From Treponema sp. (GTDB lineage: Bacteria > Spirochaetota > Spirochaetia > Treponematales > Breznakiellaceae): DNA of 38,169 bases. Each line of letters starts with the position of its first letter. The stretch's first letter is position 1. The DNA lies in contig JAISCD010000110.1 in the NCBI GenBank assembly GCA_031265825.1, positions 1-38,169 of the forward strand. The letters are read 5' to 3'. Made by a program: the position numbers and the translations under genes. A model generated the notes under the pieces. That model did not search any database, was not told where the DNA came from, and saw nothing but the letters and a program-made list of their open reading frames with translations. Below, piece after piece: positions 27,845-33,889 of this stretch.

Positions 27845-27926
27845 CTTCGCAACGGGTGGGTTTCAGATTGCGGGTCAAGTTTAGCGTTTGTTGGCGAGAT
27901 AATTGACAAAAATTATTGTGAATCGC

Positions 27927-27955
27927 TTGACAATGCCGAGCGATTATGATATATT
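27927..27955 (+). promoter_or_regulatory. Strong sigma-70 promoter of the small RNA
   Basis: TTGACA (27927-27932) and TATATT (27950-27955) with an ideal 17-bp spacer. The surrounding ATCGCTTGACAAT is repeated exactly at the next promoter (28057-28069). Transcription should begin near 27962. Confidence 0.8.
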
Positions 27956-27961
27956 AATCAC

Positions 27962-28028
27962 AGAGTACATACAGTACCTCCTTTGTAAGTTGGTCGCCTC
28001 CGTGTGGGTTGGAGGCGACCTTTTTTTT
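27962..28028 (+). ncRNA. Candidate small RNA of about 67 nt with anti-Shine-Dalgarno-like stretch
   Basis: A near-consensus promoter is followed after about 30 nt by a perfect terminator, defining a short discrete transcript. The 5' part can form a small GTAC/GTAC hairpin, then ACCTCCTTT (27976-27984), the same word as the 3' end of 16S rRNA, lies unpaired before the terminator stem. No ORF fits. Pairing with GGAGG ribosome sites of target mRNAs is the obvious hypothesis. Alternatively it could be an attenuator leader, but a second promoter follows directly, which favours an independent RNA. Confidence 0.6.
27992..28028 (+). terminator. Strong intrinsic terminator
   Basis: GGTCGCCTCC (27992-28001) pairs perfectly with GGAGGCGACC (28011-28020) over a 9-nt loop and is followed by eight T. 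It ends the candidate small RNA and may also stop read-through from trpB. Confidence 0.93.
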
Positions 28029-28061
28029 GCGAAATATGGCTGGAAACCTACAAAAGATCGC

Positions 28062-28091
28062 TTGACAATTCTTGATAAGGTAGCGTAAAAT
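28062..28091 (+). promoter_or_regulatory. Second sigma-70 promoter with the same -35 context
   Basis: TTGACA (28062-28067) and TAAAAT (28086-28091) are separated by 18 bp; transcription would begin near 28098. The block ATCGCTTGACAAT is identical to that of the preceding promoter. It would drive the C-tract ORF, the 21-nt array and the gene at 28781. Confidence 0.65.
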
Positions 28092-28115: not shown

Positions 28116-28226
28116 ATGGAATATAAAAGAACGTTCAAGTCTGCTAACCATTCTCAAGAAAGTTGCGCGCCAAGCGCAAGCTTCTCCATGATTGGATCCC
28201 CCCCCCCGCTGTGTTTTAGCGTCTAA
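28116..28226 (+). CDS. Small ORF crossing a C10 tract, possibly phase-variable
   Basis: The ATG at 28116 lies about 18 nt after the predicted transcript start, with AAAAGG 12 nt upstream, which is weak. As assembled it encodes 36 residues (MEYKRTFKSANHSQESCAPS onward) and ends soon after the C10 tract. Removing one C would join it in frame to the 21-nt array and give a protein of about 223 residues that ends within the start of the next gene (TAA at 28786-28788). The sequence resembles no family I know. Whether it is translated is unproven. Confidence 0.35.
   Translation: MEYKRTFKSANHSQESCAPSASFSMIGSPPPLCFSV
28198..28207 (+). repeat. Homopolymeric C10 tract
   Basis: Ten consecutive C residues, the longest G/C homopolymer noticed in the window, lie between a promoter and the 21-nt array. 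Tracts of this length slip during replication, and treponemes are known to use poly-G/C tracts for phase variation. Confidence 0.85.
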
Positions 28227-28327
28227 TATAAACAAGACAAACACTTCGCGCTGCTTGTCGTGTGCGCGTTATTCTCCGATTTATACGCCGAGTTCTGCGA
28301 TGTTCGGACTGTCGTCTCTGACACACT

Positions 28328-28705
28328 CGGACTACGGCACGAGAGTCTCGGACGATGGCACGAGCCGCTCGTGCTACGGCACGAGAGTCTCGCACGATGG
28401 CACGCGCAGCTCGAACTACGGCACGGAAGTCTCGCACGATGGCACGCGAGTCTCGTGCGATGGCACGCGAGTCTCGTGCGATGGCACGAGCGGATCGGAC
28501 GATGGCACGCGAGTCTCGGACAATGGCACGCGGGTCTCGGACAATGGCACGCGAGTCTCGTGCAATGGCACGCGGGTCTCGCACGATGGCACGAGCGGCT
28601 CGGACGATGGCACGAGCGGCTCGTGCTACGGCACGCGAGTCTCGCACGATGGCACGCGCGGCTCGTGCTACGGCACGCGGGTCTCGGACTACAGCACGAG
28701 CCGCA
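28328..28705. repeat. Array of 18 mosaic 21-nt repeats, open in all six frames
   Basis: Exactly 18 units of 21 nt, each with constant CG at the start, a GGCACG core (AGCACG in the last unit) and a CT end (apart from units such as GGAT and the last, CGCA). Variation is confined to a few positions: bases 3-4, the triplet before GGCACG (TAC, GAT, AAT) and the bases after it (AGAGT, CGAGT, CGGGT, AGCGG, CGCGG). Many junctions form palindromes such as GCACGAGCCGCTCGTGC. One plus frame reads as GTRVSDD-like heptapeptides. No stop codon occurs in any of the six frames, so open frames are not evidence of coding. Confidence 0.92.
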
Positions 28706-28780
28706 TATTCCAAGTTCCACTAACTATGTTCTCTTTTACCGACCGTAGGGTCGGGAATCAATATCTAGGAGGAATTTATC

Positions 28781-29434
28781 ATGGCTAACATTCCAAAGAG
28801 TTATCCTGCTTTCTCAGATTGGGAGAAGAACCTGCTCACTCATGTGCAGGCTCATCTCACGGAGTTTGCGATACAACAGGCGGTATTAACCCCACTGCTT
28901 GCGTTGCAAACAGAGTTTGAAACCGCGTATGCGCGGTCCCTTGACCCGAATCGGGGACCGGTTGACATCGCGGAGAGGAATCGGGCGCGCGCCGCGTTTG
29001 AAAAGGCGCTTCGCGCCTTCATCAAGGCGTTCCTACAGTACAGTCCTTATGTGAGCGATAAGGATCGGGACGAGATGCGGATTCCTATTCACGACACGAC
29101 GCCTACACCCGTGCCGGTTCCTACGACCTTCCCCGAATATTCGATAGACACGTCGACGCCAGCGCGTTTGGTTGTGCGTTTTTGGGACGAGGCGAGTAAG
29201 CAACGGGGGAAGCCGAAGGGTGTGCACGGCGCGGAGATACGCTGGGAGGAGCGAGAGGACACGCCTGCGAAGGCGGAGGACTTGGCTAACTCAGACTTTG
29301 CGACACGGACGCCGCGCACCTTTGCGTTTACCGGAGATAACCAAGGGCGGAAAGTGTATTTCTGCCTGCGCTGGGAGAACAACACAGGCGAGAAGGGACC
29401 CTGGGGCGCTATCGTTCACGCGATTGTACCCTGA
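28781..29434 (+). CDS. Conserved hypothetical protein with helical N-terminus and beta C-terminus
   Basis: Belongs to a hypothetical family I recall from bacteria with MANIP-type starts; no function is established. The 217 residues have a helical N-terminal half (about 1-100, with many Ala, Glu and Arg) and, after a Pro/Thr linker (TTPTPVPVPTTFPEYSIDTS), a C-terminal fibronectin-III-like beta domain ending RKVYFCLRWENNTGEKGPWG. No signal peptide is visible. The start has AGGAGG 8 nt upstream, and a hairpin CCGACC-gtag-GGTCGG (28739-28754) lies before it. It probably shares the promoter at 28062. Confidence 0.8.
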   Translation: MANIPKSYPAFSDWEKNLLTHVQAHLTEFAIQQAVLTPLLALQTEFETAYARSLDPNRGPVDIAERNRARAAFEKALRAFIKAFLQYSPYVSDKDRDEMRIPIHDTTPTPVPVPTTFPEYSIDTSTPARLVVRFWDEASKQRGKPKGVHGAEIRWEEREDTPAKAEDLANSDFATRTPRTFAFTGDNQGRKVYFCLRWENNTGEKGPWGAIVHAIVP

Positions 29435-29837: not shown

Positions 29838-31160
29838 ATGATTTATAAGAAATTAGCGGTAGTATTATTGGCGGCGGCGTTTGTGAACGCGGTATTTGCC
29901 AAGGATAATCTTGCTGTACTGCCGTTCACCGGCGGCACGGCTGTAGAAGGCGAAACTATAGCGGAATTGTTTTCATTCAGTAACGAATTAAACACGGCGT
30001 TTGCGCCTATTCCCCGCACGAGTATCACGCGGGCGATTAGTAGTGAGCAGAATTTCCAGACCAGCGCGGGCATGACAGACCCGGACACCATCGCGGCAAT
30101 CGGACGGCAACTCGGCGCTAAATACGTGGTTGCGGGAAATATCGGGAAGTTGGGTAATCAAAATCTGTTGATTATATCAATATTGAAGATCGACGATCTG
30201 CGGCAGATAGCGGGCGACATTCAGACGTATAAGGATATAGAGGAGATACGGGACAAACTGCCCGGCATGGCGCAAACCATCATTGAGGCGACTGAGATAG
30301 ACTCGGCGCAATTGGATAAGCTTGCGGTAACGCCGGTGGATTTGGGCGAGAACATCGACGCGCGGCTTACGGATACGCTGGCGCAGATTCTATCCATCAA
30401 TCTTATTAAGAGCAAGAAATACGCGGTGTACCCGCGCACTACGACGCTGGAGCAGGTGCAGACGGAATACAGCACTCAGGCGAGTGGGATAACCGCGGAC
30501 GAGAGTATGGTGGACATAGGCAGAGGAGAGAACCCGCGTTTTGTGCTGTCGGTGGTGGCGCGGCAGTTGGGCAATCTGAATATGTTTAACGCATCTATTA
30601 TCAATCTTGAGTCAGGCGTGCAGATAGTCGGGCGGTCGGTGAATTACCAATCGCTGAATGACGGTATAGCGGTGATGGAGAGCCTCGCGCAGGAATTGAC
30701 TGCTACGCCCGCGGATCCTAGTGAGATAGCGCGGATGCTTGCCGAGGCGGAAGCGGCGGCGGCTGAGGCGAAGAATAAGCCAAAGCGCGTGAAACAGTCT
30801 GGGGGCGCGGTGTTTGGCTACGGGGTGTTGAATCTGGCGCTCGGTCTCGGCTCTCTTATTCAAGGAGACGTGCCGGGTTGGCTCGTAACGTTCTTGTCCT
30901 ATGGCGCCGCGGCTGGGCTGGTCGCCTGGGACCTCTCGCTTGACTATGAGTATGAACTCATGGGGATAGAGTTTGCGGGTATTCCGGGAGCCGTGGGCTT
31001 CGGCATAGCCGGGTTTGCGATTCTCTACGGGTTTATCCGCCCCGCGGTGGTCAACCACAACCGCGGGCTTGCGAAGATCATGGACAGCATGGATATAGCG
31101 GTTGTCCCACGGTGGGACGGTCGGGAAACGATTCGGCTTGCGTATTCGGTGAAGTTTTGA
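29838..31160 (+). CDS. Exported protein: LpoB/TolB-like N-terminus and P13-like C-terminus
   Basis: Predicted envelope protein of 440 residues. A signal peptide (KKLAVVLLAAAFVNAVFA) precedes NLAVLPFTGGTAVEGETIAEL, a pattern of periplasmic lipoprotein/TolB-like domains, repeated in a second related unit (about 165-285). An Ala/Glu coil (about 288-312) leads to a C-terminal hydrophobic domain (about 320-440: GGAVFGYGVLNLALGLGSLI, GAVGFGIAGFAILYGFIRP, VNHNRGLAKIM) resembling Borrelia P13, an outer-membrane porin-like protein. The ATG at 29838 has GGAGG 5 nt upstream. It is followed after 11 nt by the adhesin and likely co-transcribed. Confidence 0.7.
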   Translation: MIYKKLAVVLLAAAFVNAVFAKDNLAVLPFTGGTAVEGETIAELFSFSNELNTAFAPIPRTSITRAISSEQNFQTSAGMTDPDTIAAIGRQLGAKYVVAGNIGKLGNQNLLIISILKIDDLRQIAGDIQTYKDIEEIRDKLPGMAQTIIEATEIDSAQLDKLAVTPVDLGENIDARLTDTLAQILSINLIKSKKYAVYPRTTTLEQVQTEYSTQASGITADESMVDIGRGENPRFVLSVVARQLGNLNMFNASIINLESGVQIVGRSVNYQSLNDGIAVMESLAQELTATPADPSEIARMLAEAEAAAAEAKNKPKRVKQSGGAVFGYGVLNLALGLGSLIQGDVPGWLVTFLSYGAAAGLVAWDLSLDYEYELMGIEFAGIPGAVGFGIAGFAILYGFIRPAVVNHNRGLAKIMDSMDIAVVPRWDGRETIRLAYSVKF

Positions 31161-31171
31161 GGGGGCGGGAG

Positions 31172-33889
31172 ATGAAAAGGAAGCTTTTAGCCGCGTTCTT
31201 GGGCGCGGCGTTGTTAGCAGGGTTGCTTACCGGGTGCAGGGACTTACTGCATCCGGAGGGACCCAGGGATCGTGTCGTAACGTTTAGTGTGGAGAATAGC
31301 GCGTGGAAGAAGGTATCGGTAAAGAAAGACGATCCGATTGGCTCCGCGATGCCGTCAAATCCAAGCAGAGAGGGGTATACTTTCGCTGGCTGGTATACGG
31401 AAAGGAACGGCGCGGGCAAGCAGTTTATCGACTCTACGCAGGTGAATGAAGATATGACCGTGTACGCGAATTGGACGGTCGCGCAAAGGATCGTAACGTT
31501 TGACTTGCAGGGCGGGAACATTAACGGCTCGTCTGTACAACAGACGCGGACGTTAAGCAACGGGTCTGCGCTCGGCGTGAATATGCCGTCAAGTCCGAGC
31601 AGGGACAACTACACTTTCGGGGGCTGGTACACGGCAATCAACGGCGGAGGCAATGCGTTTAACGACTCTACACCGGTAACCGCGAGTATGACTATATATG
31701 CAAAATGGACGGCTATACAAAGGAACGTAACATTTGACTTGCAAGGCGGGAACATTAACGGCTCGGTTACATCACTGACGCGGACGGTGAACAGCGGGGC
31801 TTCGCTCGGCGCGAATACGCCGTCAAATCCGAGCAGGGACAACTATATTTTCGGTGGCTGGTACACTGCAATCAACGGCGGAGGCGTTCCGTTTAACGAC
31901 TCTACGCCGGTAACCGCTGATCTAATCATATACGCGAAATGGATGATTCTGCCGCAATACACCGTAACGTTTGACTTACAGGGCGGAAACATTTACGGCG
32001 ATACTGCCCAACAGACGCGGACAGTATACAGTGGCTTCTCCCTTGGCGTGAATATGCCATTCAGTCCGAGCAGGGACAACTATACCTTCAACGGCTGGTT
32101 TACTTCAAGCGGCGGGTACAGCGCTTCATTTATCGAGTCTACGCCGGTAGGCGCGGATATAACGGTATATGCAGATTGGGTGGTTATACAAAGGAACGTA
32201 ACGTTTGACTTGCAGGGCGGGAACATGAGTGGCTCGACCGCACAAGTAACGCGGACGGTGAACAGCGGGGCTTCGCTCGGCGCAAATACGCCGTCAAATC
32301 CGAGTAGGGACAACTATACTTTTGACGGCTGGTTTACCGCGACCAACGGCGGAGGCAATGCGGTTACCAGCTCTACACCGATAACCGTGAATCTAACCGT
32401 ATATGCGAAATGGACGATTATACAGCGGCTCGTAACGTTTGACTTACAAGGCGGGAACATGAGCGGCTCGACCGCACAAGTAACGCGGACCGTGAACAGC
32501 GGGACTGCGCTCGGCGCGAATACGCCATCAAACCCAAGCAGAGACGAATATATCTTCGACGGTTGGTATATTTCCGCAAGCGGGAGTAATACGTTTACCA
32601 GCTCTACGATGGTAACCGCGGATATGACCGTGTACGCGAAATGGACGATTATACAGTACACCGTAACGTTTGACTTGCAGGGTGGGAAGATCAGCGGCGA
32701 TACTGCGGCGCAGACGCGGACGGTGAACAGCGGGGCTTCGCTTGGCGCGAATATACCGTCAAATCCAAGCAGGAATGGGTATACTTTCGACGGCTGGTTT
32801 ACTTCTACAGGCGGGAGTAGTGAGTTTACCGACTCTACGCCGATAAGCGCGAATCTAACCATATACGCGAAATGGACAATTGCACAGATGCCTTCCAATT
32901 TGTCGCTTGCCGAGACGTTAGCGTGGATCAGTAGTAACGCGATAGAAGGTGGGAATTATACTATTACGCTAAAGAACGATGAGACCATCGCGTCCCAGTC
33001 GCTTTCGTATGATGTTAGCAATGTAAGTATAACTCTTGACGGCGGAACCGCGGAACGGATAGTTATCTTGAATTCAAATGGCGTACTCTTTACCATAGGC
33101 GACGGCGTAAGCTTGACACTGGGAAACAACGTTACCTTACAGGGACGGAGTAGCAATACGGCTTCGCTTGTGCGGGTGAACAGCGGAGGGACGCTGACGA
33201 TGAATACCGGCTCGAAGATTACAGGCAACACCAACGCCGCCGCTACTTACTCCTCCTCATCCAACAACGCCTATTCTATCCCTGGGGGCGGCGGGGTGTA
33301 TGTAAACGGCGGGACATTTACGATGAACGGTGGAGAAATCTCTGGCAACTCCGCTTCTCGTACTTCTTCCTCCTACTCCTCCTCCTACTCTTTCGGTGGT
33401 GGCGTATATATATCCGGTAACGGAATGTTTACGATGAGCGGCGGGACTATCAGTGGGAATATTTCCTCTTACTCCTCTTCTTCCAATAACTATTCCTACG
33501 GCGGCGGTGTGTGTGTGTACTATGGAACGTTTACGATGAGCGGTGGGACTATCAGCGGGAATACTTCCTCCTCCTACAACTATTCCTACGGCGGCGGGGT
33601 ATTTGTGTACATTAGCGGTATATTTACCATGACCGGCGGGACGATCAGTGGAAACTCCGCCGCTTACTTTTATGGCGGCGGGGTGTATGTGAATGGTGGG
33701 ACGTTCATCAAGCAGTCAGGCGGGATCATTTACGGGTCAAATGCAAGCAGTACGCTGAAAAACACTGTGTCTGGCAACGATTACGGACATGCAGTCTACG
33801 TCTCCTCGACTAAGATTCGCAACAGCACGGCGGGTTCAGGCGTAACGCTGAACAGCGGAGTAAGCGGCTCAGCGGGCGGCTGGGAGTAA
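31172..33889 (+). CDS. Surface lipoprotein adhesin with Listeria/Bacteroides repeats
   Basis: Large predicted surface lipoprotein of 905 residues. The lipobox is ALLAGLLTGCRDL (Cys near residue 21). Seven tandem List-Bact/InlB-B-type repeats of about 75 residues (residues 32-573) each have VTFDLQGGN, NPSRDNYTFGGW and TVYAKWT; the first is divergent. A spacer (about 575-665) leads to a Gly/Ser-rich tail of about six GGTFTMSGGTISGN units, typical of right-handed beta-helix polymorphic-type proteins. The tail units include runs of Ser and Tyr. Repeat similarity at DNA level suggests recombination-driven copy change. The ATG at 31172 has a GGGGGCGGGAG leader. The operon partner is the P13-like gene. 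Confidence 0.85.
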   Translation: MKRKLLAAFLGAALLAGLLTGCRDLLHPEGPRDRVVTFSVENSAWKKVSVKKDDPIGSAMPSNPSREGYTFAGWYTERNGAGKQFIDSTQVNEDMTVYANWTVAQRIVTFDLQGGNINGSSVQQTRTLSNGSALGVNMPSSPSRDNYTFGGWYTAINGGGNAFNDSTPVTASMTIYAKWTAIQRNVTFDLQGGNINGSVTSLTRTVNSGASLGANTPSNPSRDNYIFGGWYTAINGGGVPFNDSTPVTADLIIYAKWMILPQYTVTFDLQGGNIYGDTAQQTRTVYSGFSLGVNMPFSPSRDNYTFNGWFTSSGGYSASFIESTPVGADITVYADWVVIQRNVTFDLQGGNMSGSTAQVTRTVNSGASLGANTPSNPSRDNYTFDGWFTATNGGGNAVTSSTPITVNLTVYAKWTIIQRLVTFDLQGGNMSGSTAQVTRTVNSGTALGANTPSNPSRDEYIFDGWYISASGSNTFTSSTMVTADMTVYAKWTIIQYTVTFDLQGGKISGDTAAQTRTVNSGASLGANIPSNPSRNGYTFDGWFTSTGGSSEFTDSTPISANLTIYAKWTIAQMPSNLSLAETLAWISSNAIEGGNYTITLKNDETIASQSLSYDVSNVSITLDGGTAERIVILNSNGVLFTIGDGVSLTLGNNVTLQGRSSNTASLVRVNSGGTLTMNTGSKITGNTNAAATYSSSSNNAYSIPGGGGVYVNGGTFTMNGGEISGNSASRTSSSYSSSYSFGGGVYISGNGMFTMSGGTISGNISSYSSSSNNYSYGGGVCVYYGTFTMSGGTISGNTSSSYNYSYGGGVFVYISGIFTMTGGTISGNSAAYFYGGGVYVNGGTFIKQSGGIIYGSNASSTLKNTVSGNDYGHAVYVSSTKIRNSTAGSGVTLNSGVSGSAGGWE

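Follow-up and report, generated by a model that had tools for sequence, protein, structure and literature searches.

Positions 27927-28028 of the window (the whole 38,169-nucleotide stretch of Treponema sp. DNA that was analyzed) contain a putative small-RNA gene in which a body of about 30 nt is placed between a near-consensus sigma-70 promoter and a strong intrinsic terminator. Its gene structure, its membership in a family, the conservation of that family, and its linkage to a cassette can be read from the sequence. The interpretation that we favor, with a probability of roughly 0.55, is that it is one of three paralogous genes for a family of Hfq-independent, trans-acting small RNAs (sRNAs) that would mask Shine-Dalgarno (SD) sites through an exposed anti-SD seed. 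The unit has the following parts:

27908..27955, + strand: promoter P1, with an AT-rich upstream element, a -35 element CTTGACAA (TTGACA at 27927-27932), and a -10 element TATATT (27950-27955)
27962..28028, + strand: predicted small RNA of about 67 nt, its start placed about 7 nt past the -10 element and its end within the T run
27965..27977, + strand: 5' hairpin GUAC-AUACA-GUAC, 4 bp, preceding CCUCC
27976-27984, + strand: anti-SD word ACCTCCTTT, of which all three copies share CCTCCTTT (27977-27984) unchanged
27992..28028, + strand: intrinsic terminator, with its stem at 27992-28020 and eight T at 28021-28028

The P1 hexamers (TTGACA-17-TATATT, 27927-27955) agree with the consensus at 11 of 12 positions, TG precedes the -10 element, and parts of the spacer (CGAG.G.TTAT) are invariant across the three copies. 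P1 is the top promoter match within the 4.5 kb that were scanned, a region with 10 promoter-like sites versus 3.2 in shuffled sequences. The terminator stem, the strongest in the region, contains 11 pairs in the fold, 10 of them perfect Watson-Crick pairs and the innermost a G-U pair, and the predicted RNA (27961-28028) folds with an energy of −25.6 kcal/mol (z = −3.5 versus shuffles). The promoter with its 17-bp spacer, the body of about 30 nt, and the perfect 10-bp terminator with eight T had all been described in the original prediction, and the scan confirmed each of them. Judged from its sequence, the unit has the general attributes of an anti-SD sRNA gene, namely its own promoter, an intrinsic terminator, and a non-coding body; in the alignment of the copies, the differences in length are not divisible by three, and the unit is therefore not a conserved open reading frame. 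Such an arrangement is rare in this genome. When 1.79 of the 1.81 Mb were searched for promoters whose hexamers had no more than one mismatch each and which were followed after 40-130 nt by a strong terminator, four units were found, the three family copies and one tRNA gene; random placement of promoters gives a mean of 0.73 units, and only 0.8% of trials get to four.

The two further copies in the same genome are at C37:1715-1843 (E = 1.8e-18) and C87:7240-7347 (E = 1.6e-12) and are about 75% identical. The final three-copy alignment was built manually and verified with a script, because MAFFT misaligns C87 at the loop and linker, where the loop is one nucleotide shorter and the U run three longer. 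The invariant blocks of at least five nucleotides are CTTGACAA, TATATT, CCTCCTTT, TGGAG in the terminator, and the T run together with the G after it. All 14 stem pairs of the 5' hairpin and terminator are standard in every copy, with none broken, and double compensatory changes are present at four pairs, two in the 5' hairpin and two in the terminator stem. It should be noted that this covariation is real but limited, since GCGC, common to two of the copies, may go back to a single event, and that the conservation is among three paralogues from one partial metagenome-assembled genome (MAG; 57% complete, 117 contigs). The invariant 8-nt block in copies of about 75% identity, taken alone, is no more than modest evidence. 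Together, the three conserved copies, the covarying stems, and the lack of an Rfam hit give good support to the earlier proposal of a discrete anti-SD sRNA gene that belongs to no known RNA family, the transcript of about 67 nt being itself a prediction.

The word ACCTCCTTT matches, without a mismatch, the final letters of the 16S tail word of congeners, TGGATCACCTCCTTT (TGGATC-ACCTCCTTT). It follows the 5' hairpin, which has the form GCGC-AUAGA-GCGC or GCGC-AUAU-GCGC in the other two copies, and which pairs the first C of CCUCC, leaving CUCCUUUGUAAG as the exposed remainder. In the predicted folds of the C37 and C87 copies, CUCCUUU is mostly open (probability of at least 0.88 per base); the window copy has an alternative fold in which the UUU is partly paired, and its exposed region can form some pairs with the 5' end. 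The CCUCCUUU core, and the anti-SD word with it, is predicted to be mostly unpaired in C37 and C87 and partly unpaired in the window copy. The original prediction placed the anti-SD word in the only unstructured part of the transcript; the word is indeed there, but it is not the sole feature beyond the terminator, the 5' hairpin that precedes it and pairs its first C having been missed.

Because the anti-SD word is exposed, pairing to SD sites is suggested. In the mechanism that we propose, the gene's own sigma-70 promoter would start transcription and its own intrinsic terminator would end it, giving an RNA in which an exposed CUCCUUUG linker, identical to part of the 16S anti-SD tail, lies between a short 5' hairpin and a terminator hairpin. 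The linker would pair in trans with SD sequences, this pairing would block ribosome loading without Hfq, and the choice of target would depend on pairing outside the core. Transcription, repression, targets, and action in trans, whether on numerous mRNAs or on a particular one as the original prediction had it, are the parts of this scheme that we infer. An Hfq gene was found in none of 25 related genomes, in searches with positive controls, the genome under study being itself 57% complete.

Target prediction had been suggested as a check; a genome-wide duplex scan of 1726 predicted start regions produced no specific target common to the three copies, a weak test in that the starts were chosen automatically and some are wrong. 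In the same scan, duplex energies are correlated between copies (r = 0.59-0.72), the predicted affinity is only for SD sites in general, and the top predicted duplexes involve AAAGGAGG-like sites or chance G-rich stretches. The adjacent cassette genes have middle ranks, with no special affinity in the duplex prediction from these automatic starts, and for a 59-member family of 217-amino acid proteins the window copy shows at best a slight preference (mean percentile 0.32). The most stable predicted duplex, between the C37 RNA and L134 (−30.8 kcal/mol), was set aside, its start having been chosen inside a longer open reading frame. Pairing of a G run in the terminator loop to poly-C was also rejected; the run is GGG or GGGG in two copies, too short, and absent in C37.

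That the RNA is instead a decoy, a mimic of the 16S tail that binds a protein (for example, a 16S 3'-end factor) or soaks up SD-like RNA, is in keeping with the identity of the 9-nt word to the 16S tail and with the lack of an apparent specific target in the duplex scan, but it is very unlikely, as it has no positive evidence and the GAUCA part of the 16S end, which known 16S-tail-binding factors such as Era need, is absent beside the word.

The remaining alternatives arise from the neighborhood. Downstream of the unit is a cassette with the following features:

28062..28091, + strand: promoter P2 of the downstream cassette, TTGACA-18-TAAAAT, near-consensus, 34 nt past the terminator
28116..28788, + strand: cassette lead ORF, with a poly-C tract of 10 C at 28198-28207
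28781..29434, + strand: cassette gene of 217 amino acids, with 59 family ORFs in this partial genome
29826..31160, + strand: cassette gene with an LpoB-like region

The general layout of these cassettes is promoter P2, a lead ORF (with a poly-C tract in most), repeats in some, and then a 217-amino acid family gene and/or an LpoB-like gene. P2 leaders occur elsewhere in C37, C87, C23, C24, and C18 and in another Treponema MAG (L092). Immediately downstream of each of the three copies of the unit is a cassette leader that points the same way. The upstream genes differ, being trpB-like in the window, a histidine kinase gene in C87, and an EamA transporter gene in C37, and the unit therefore travels with the cassette and not with its neighbors. 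Among the P2 cassettes of the same genome that have their 5' flank on the contig, the unit is present in three and absent from three (C18, C23, and C24); L092, from the related MAG, likewise has P2 without the unit.

This location raises the alternative that the unit is a cis-acting leader, in which transcription from P1 would be attenuated at the terminator, with signal-dependent read-through into the adjacent cassette. The position of three of three copies, directly before a cassette leader and in its orientation, favors this alternative. However, the cassette is served by P2, a near-consensus promoter of its own 34 nt past the terminator; the P2 cassettes of C18, C23, C24, and L092 are without the unit; and neither a mutually exclusive fold nor an upstream ORF is evident, and no riboswitch family matches. 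In C37, moreover, the adjacent leader has lost its P2 and a new P2 leader is present further on, but the sRNA unit is intact, which speaks against the unit as a mere P2 leader. An attenuator read through into downstream genes, which the original prediction had itself raised as an alternative, is weakened by C37, although a cassette leader does lie downstream in every case, and we consider the cis-acting leader unlikely.

A promoter-terminator insulator, or a passive remnant copied with the cassette, whose RNA would itself be functionless, is quite unlikely. The linkage to cassettes, upstream genes that run toward the cassette at all three loci, and the absence of the unit from half of the cassettes with a visible 5' flank in its own genome are compatible with it, but double compensatory changes occur in the 5' hairpin, for which an insulator would have no use, CCTCCTTT is invariant, and in C37 it is the neighboring leader that has decayed and not the unit.

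The cassette itself has further features. The length of the lead ORF depends on the tract, being 36 amino acids as assembled (10 C), 34 with 11 C, and 223-224 with 9 or 12 C; the 223-224-amino acid version crosses a 21-bp repeat array and overlaps the start codon of the 217-amino acid gene, which looks like phase variation with translational coupling. The 217-amino acid protein has no match in Pfam or NCBIfam, and a poly-C tract on the same strand lies no more than 900 nt upstream of 15 of the 59 family ORFs, against an expectation of 1.3. The LpoB-like gene is followed, at window positions 31112-33889, by a protein with seven Listeria-Bacteroides repeats (PF09479) and a Ser/Gly-rich repetitive end. 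Repeat arrays of the 21-bp type but of quite different sequences (GGCACGAG.CTCG, TATTCTGTAGTAGATGA, and GTGGGAGAGTCTCGCC) occupy the same place in the cassettes at window positions 28305-28700, L016:2340-2700, and L056:1720-2110.

Tracts of at least nine C number about 110 in 1.79 Mb of the genome under study (G000), with a sharp peak at 11 (62 tracts); examples are at L130:12048 and 14475, L111:7131, and L122:13469. Many follow short in-frame lead peptides of recurrent families (MRLAVFIDNKSL.., MQKKRLSRTSIS.., and MNKPYYAPHNAPHL..), a few long ones, located at the ends of contigs, have the look of assembly artifacts, and the G000 tracts make up a very large candidate phase-variation set. Poly-C tracts of at least 10 are also found near a like promoter or cassette gene at L240 and L243 (G011, same genus) and at L092 and L070-L075 (related Treponema MAGs). 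At L037, what lies upstream of a P2 at 11024 on the minus strand resembles the last part of a tyrosine recombinase gene and may bear on the mobility of the cassettes.

The conservation in treponemes that had been anticipated was not found: among 200 genomes of the family, neither the pattern nor the covariance model detected a homologue, and only the genome under study has the unit. A DNA search of 60 relatives gave no match beyond chance, and searches of viral and phage collections gave nothing relevant. The lack of a match in 200 genomes indicates that the sRNA family is very young, fast-changing, or confined to the species. Weak covariance-model hits in the 60 and 200 genomes (G001, G036, G041, G128, G129, and G210) were rejected; in the four best, which were aligned (G001, G128, G129, and G210), the stem pairs are mostly broken and CCTCCTTT is missing, and they read as ordinary promoters with other terminators or genes. 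Two pattern matches were rejected on reading, one in G144 that lies ahead of a tRNA and one in G152 that has no visible terminator. Weak matches within the genome under study, at C105, C46, and C19, were also rejected; the C19 match coincides with an apparent RNase P RNA gene. The nearest named genomes, found through the LpoB-like gene of the cassette, are mainly Treponema MAGs, apparently from termite guts, the host being taken from sample names.

The earlier statement that the RNA resembles no nameable family is borne out by Rfam, in which no family reaches its gathering score and only chance-level matches appear at E values up to 10; one of these, to suhB/mmgR (RF00519) over 27964-28035, was discarded at 14.5 bits (E = 2), far below the gathering score of 41. 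A close parallel to the proposed mode of action is NfeR1 of Sinorhizobium meliloti, whose three CCUCCUCCC motifs are unpaired and which, independently of Hfq, silences ntrB by acting at its start site; NfeR1/alpha-r14 also has its own sigma-70 promoter with conserved upstream DNA (PMC10746234). The RNA described here is similar in having an unpaired anti-SD motif and its own sigma-70 promoter and in the proposed Hfq-free masking of start sites, but NfeR1/alpha-r14 has three hairpins that each expose CCUCCUCCC and is found in alpha-proteobacteria, whereas the present RNA has two hairpins and one CCUCCUUU in the linker. No match to an alpha-r14/NfeR1 family model was obtained in Rfam at E values up to 10, a collection that may not include alpha-r14. 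In Listeria, the multicopy sibling RNAs LhrC1-5 have CU-rich exposed motifs and regulate expression of the adhesin LapB (PMC4132741). The present family is alike in having several homologous copies per genome, three in this case, with an exposed CU-rich motif; it differs in belonging to another phylum, and no sequence relation was found in Rfam, which may not include LhrC. RepG of Helicobacter pylori has a C/U-rich exposed region that binds a poly-G tract and is tied to homopolymer-based variation. Unlike its target, the tracts in the treponeme cassettes read as poly-C on the sense strand, and the CCUCC linker has no complementarity to them. The RNA plausibly works like NfeR1/alpha-r14 or LhrC, and relatedness to either is unsupported by family match or architecture. 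It is predicted to represent a new small-RNA family of a known general kind, the trans-acting anti-SD sRNAs.

No described treponeme small RNA was found in the open-licence literature, so one could be missed. These relatives have no detectable Hfq, which makes their control of translation by RNA of interest, and a compact, three-copy RNA that exposes the anti-SD word of the ribosome and is linked to cassettes that appear to be phase-variable offers a defined, testable candidate. An extension of the trans-acting anti-SD reading, which we regard as doubtful, is that the sRNA family is cassette-borne, is copied with the poly-C phase-variable cassettes in a bacterium without detectable Hfq, and represses cassette or sibling mRNAs. 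The cassette system nearby may merit study of its own and, if this extension is true, cassette-borne sRNA repression would couple post-transcriptional control to phase variation.
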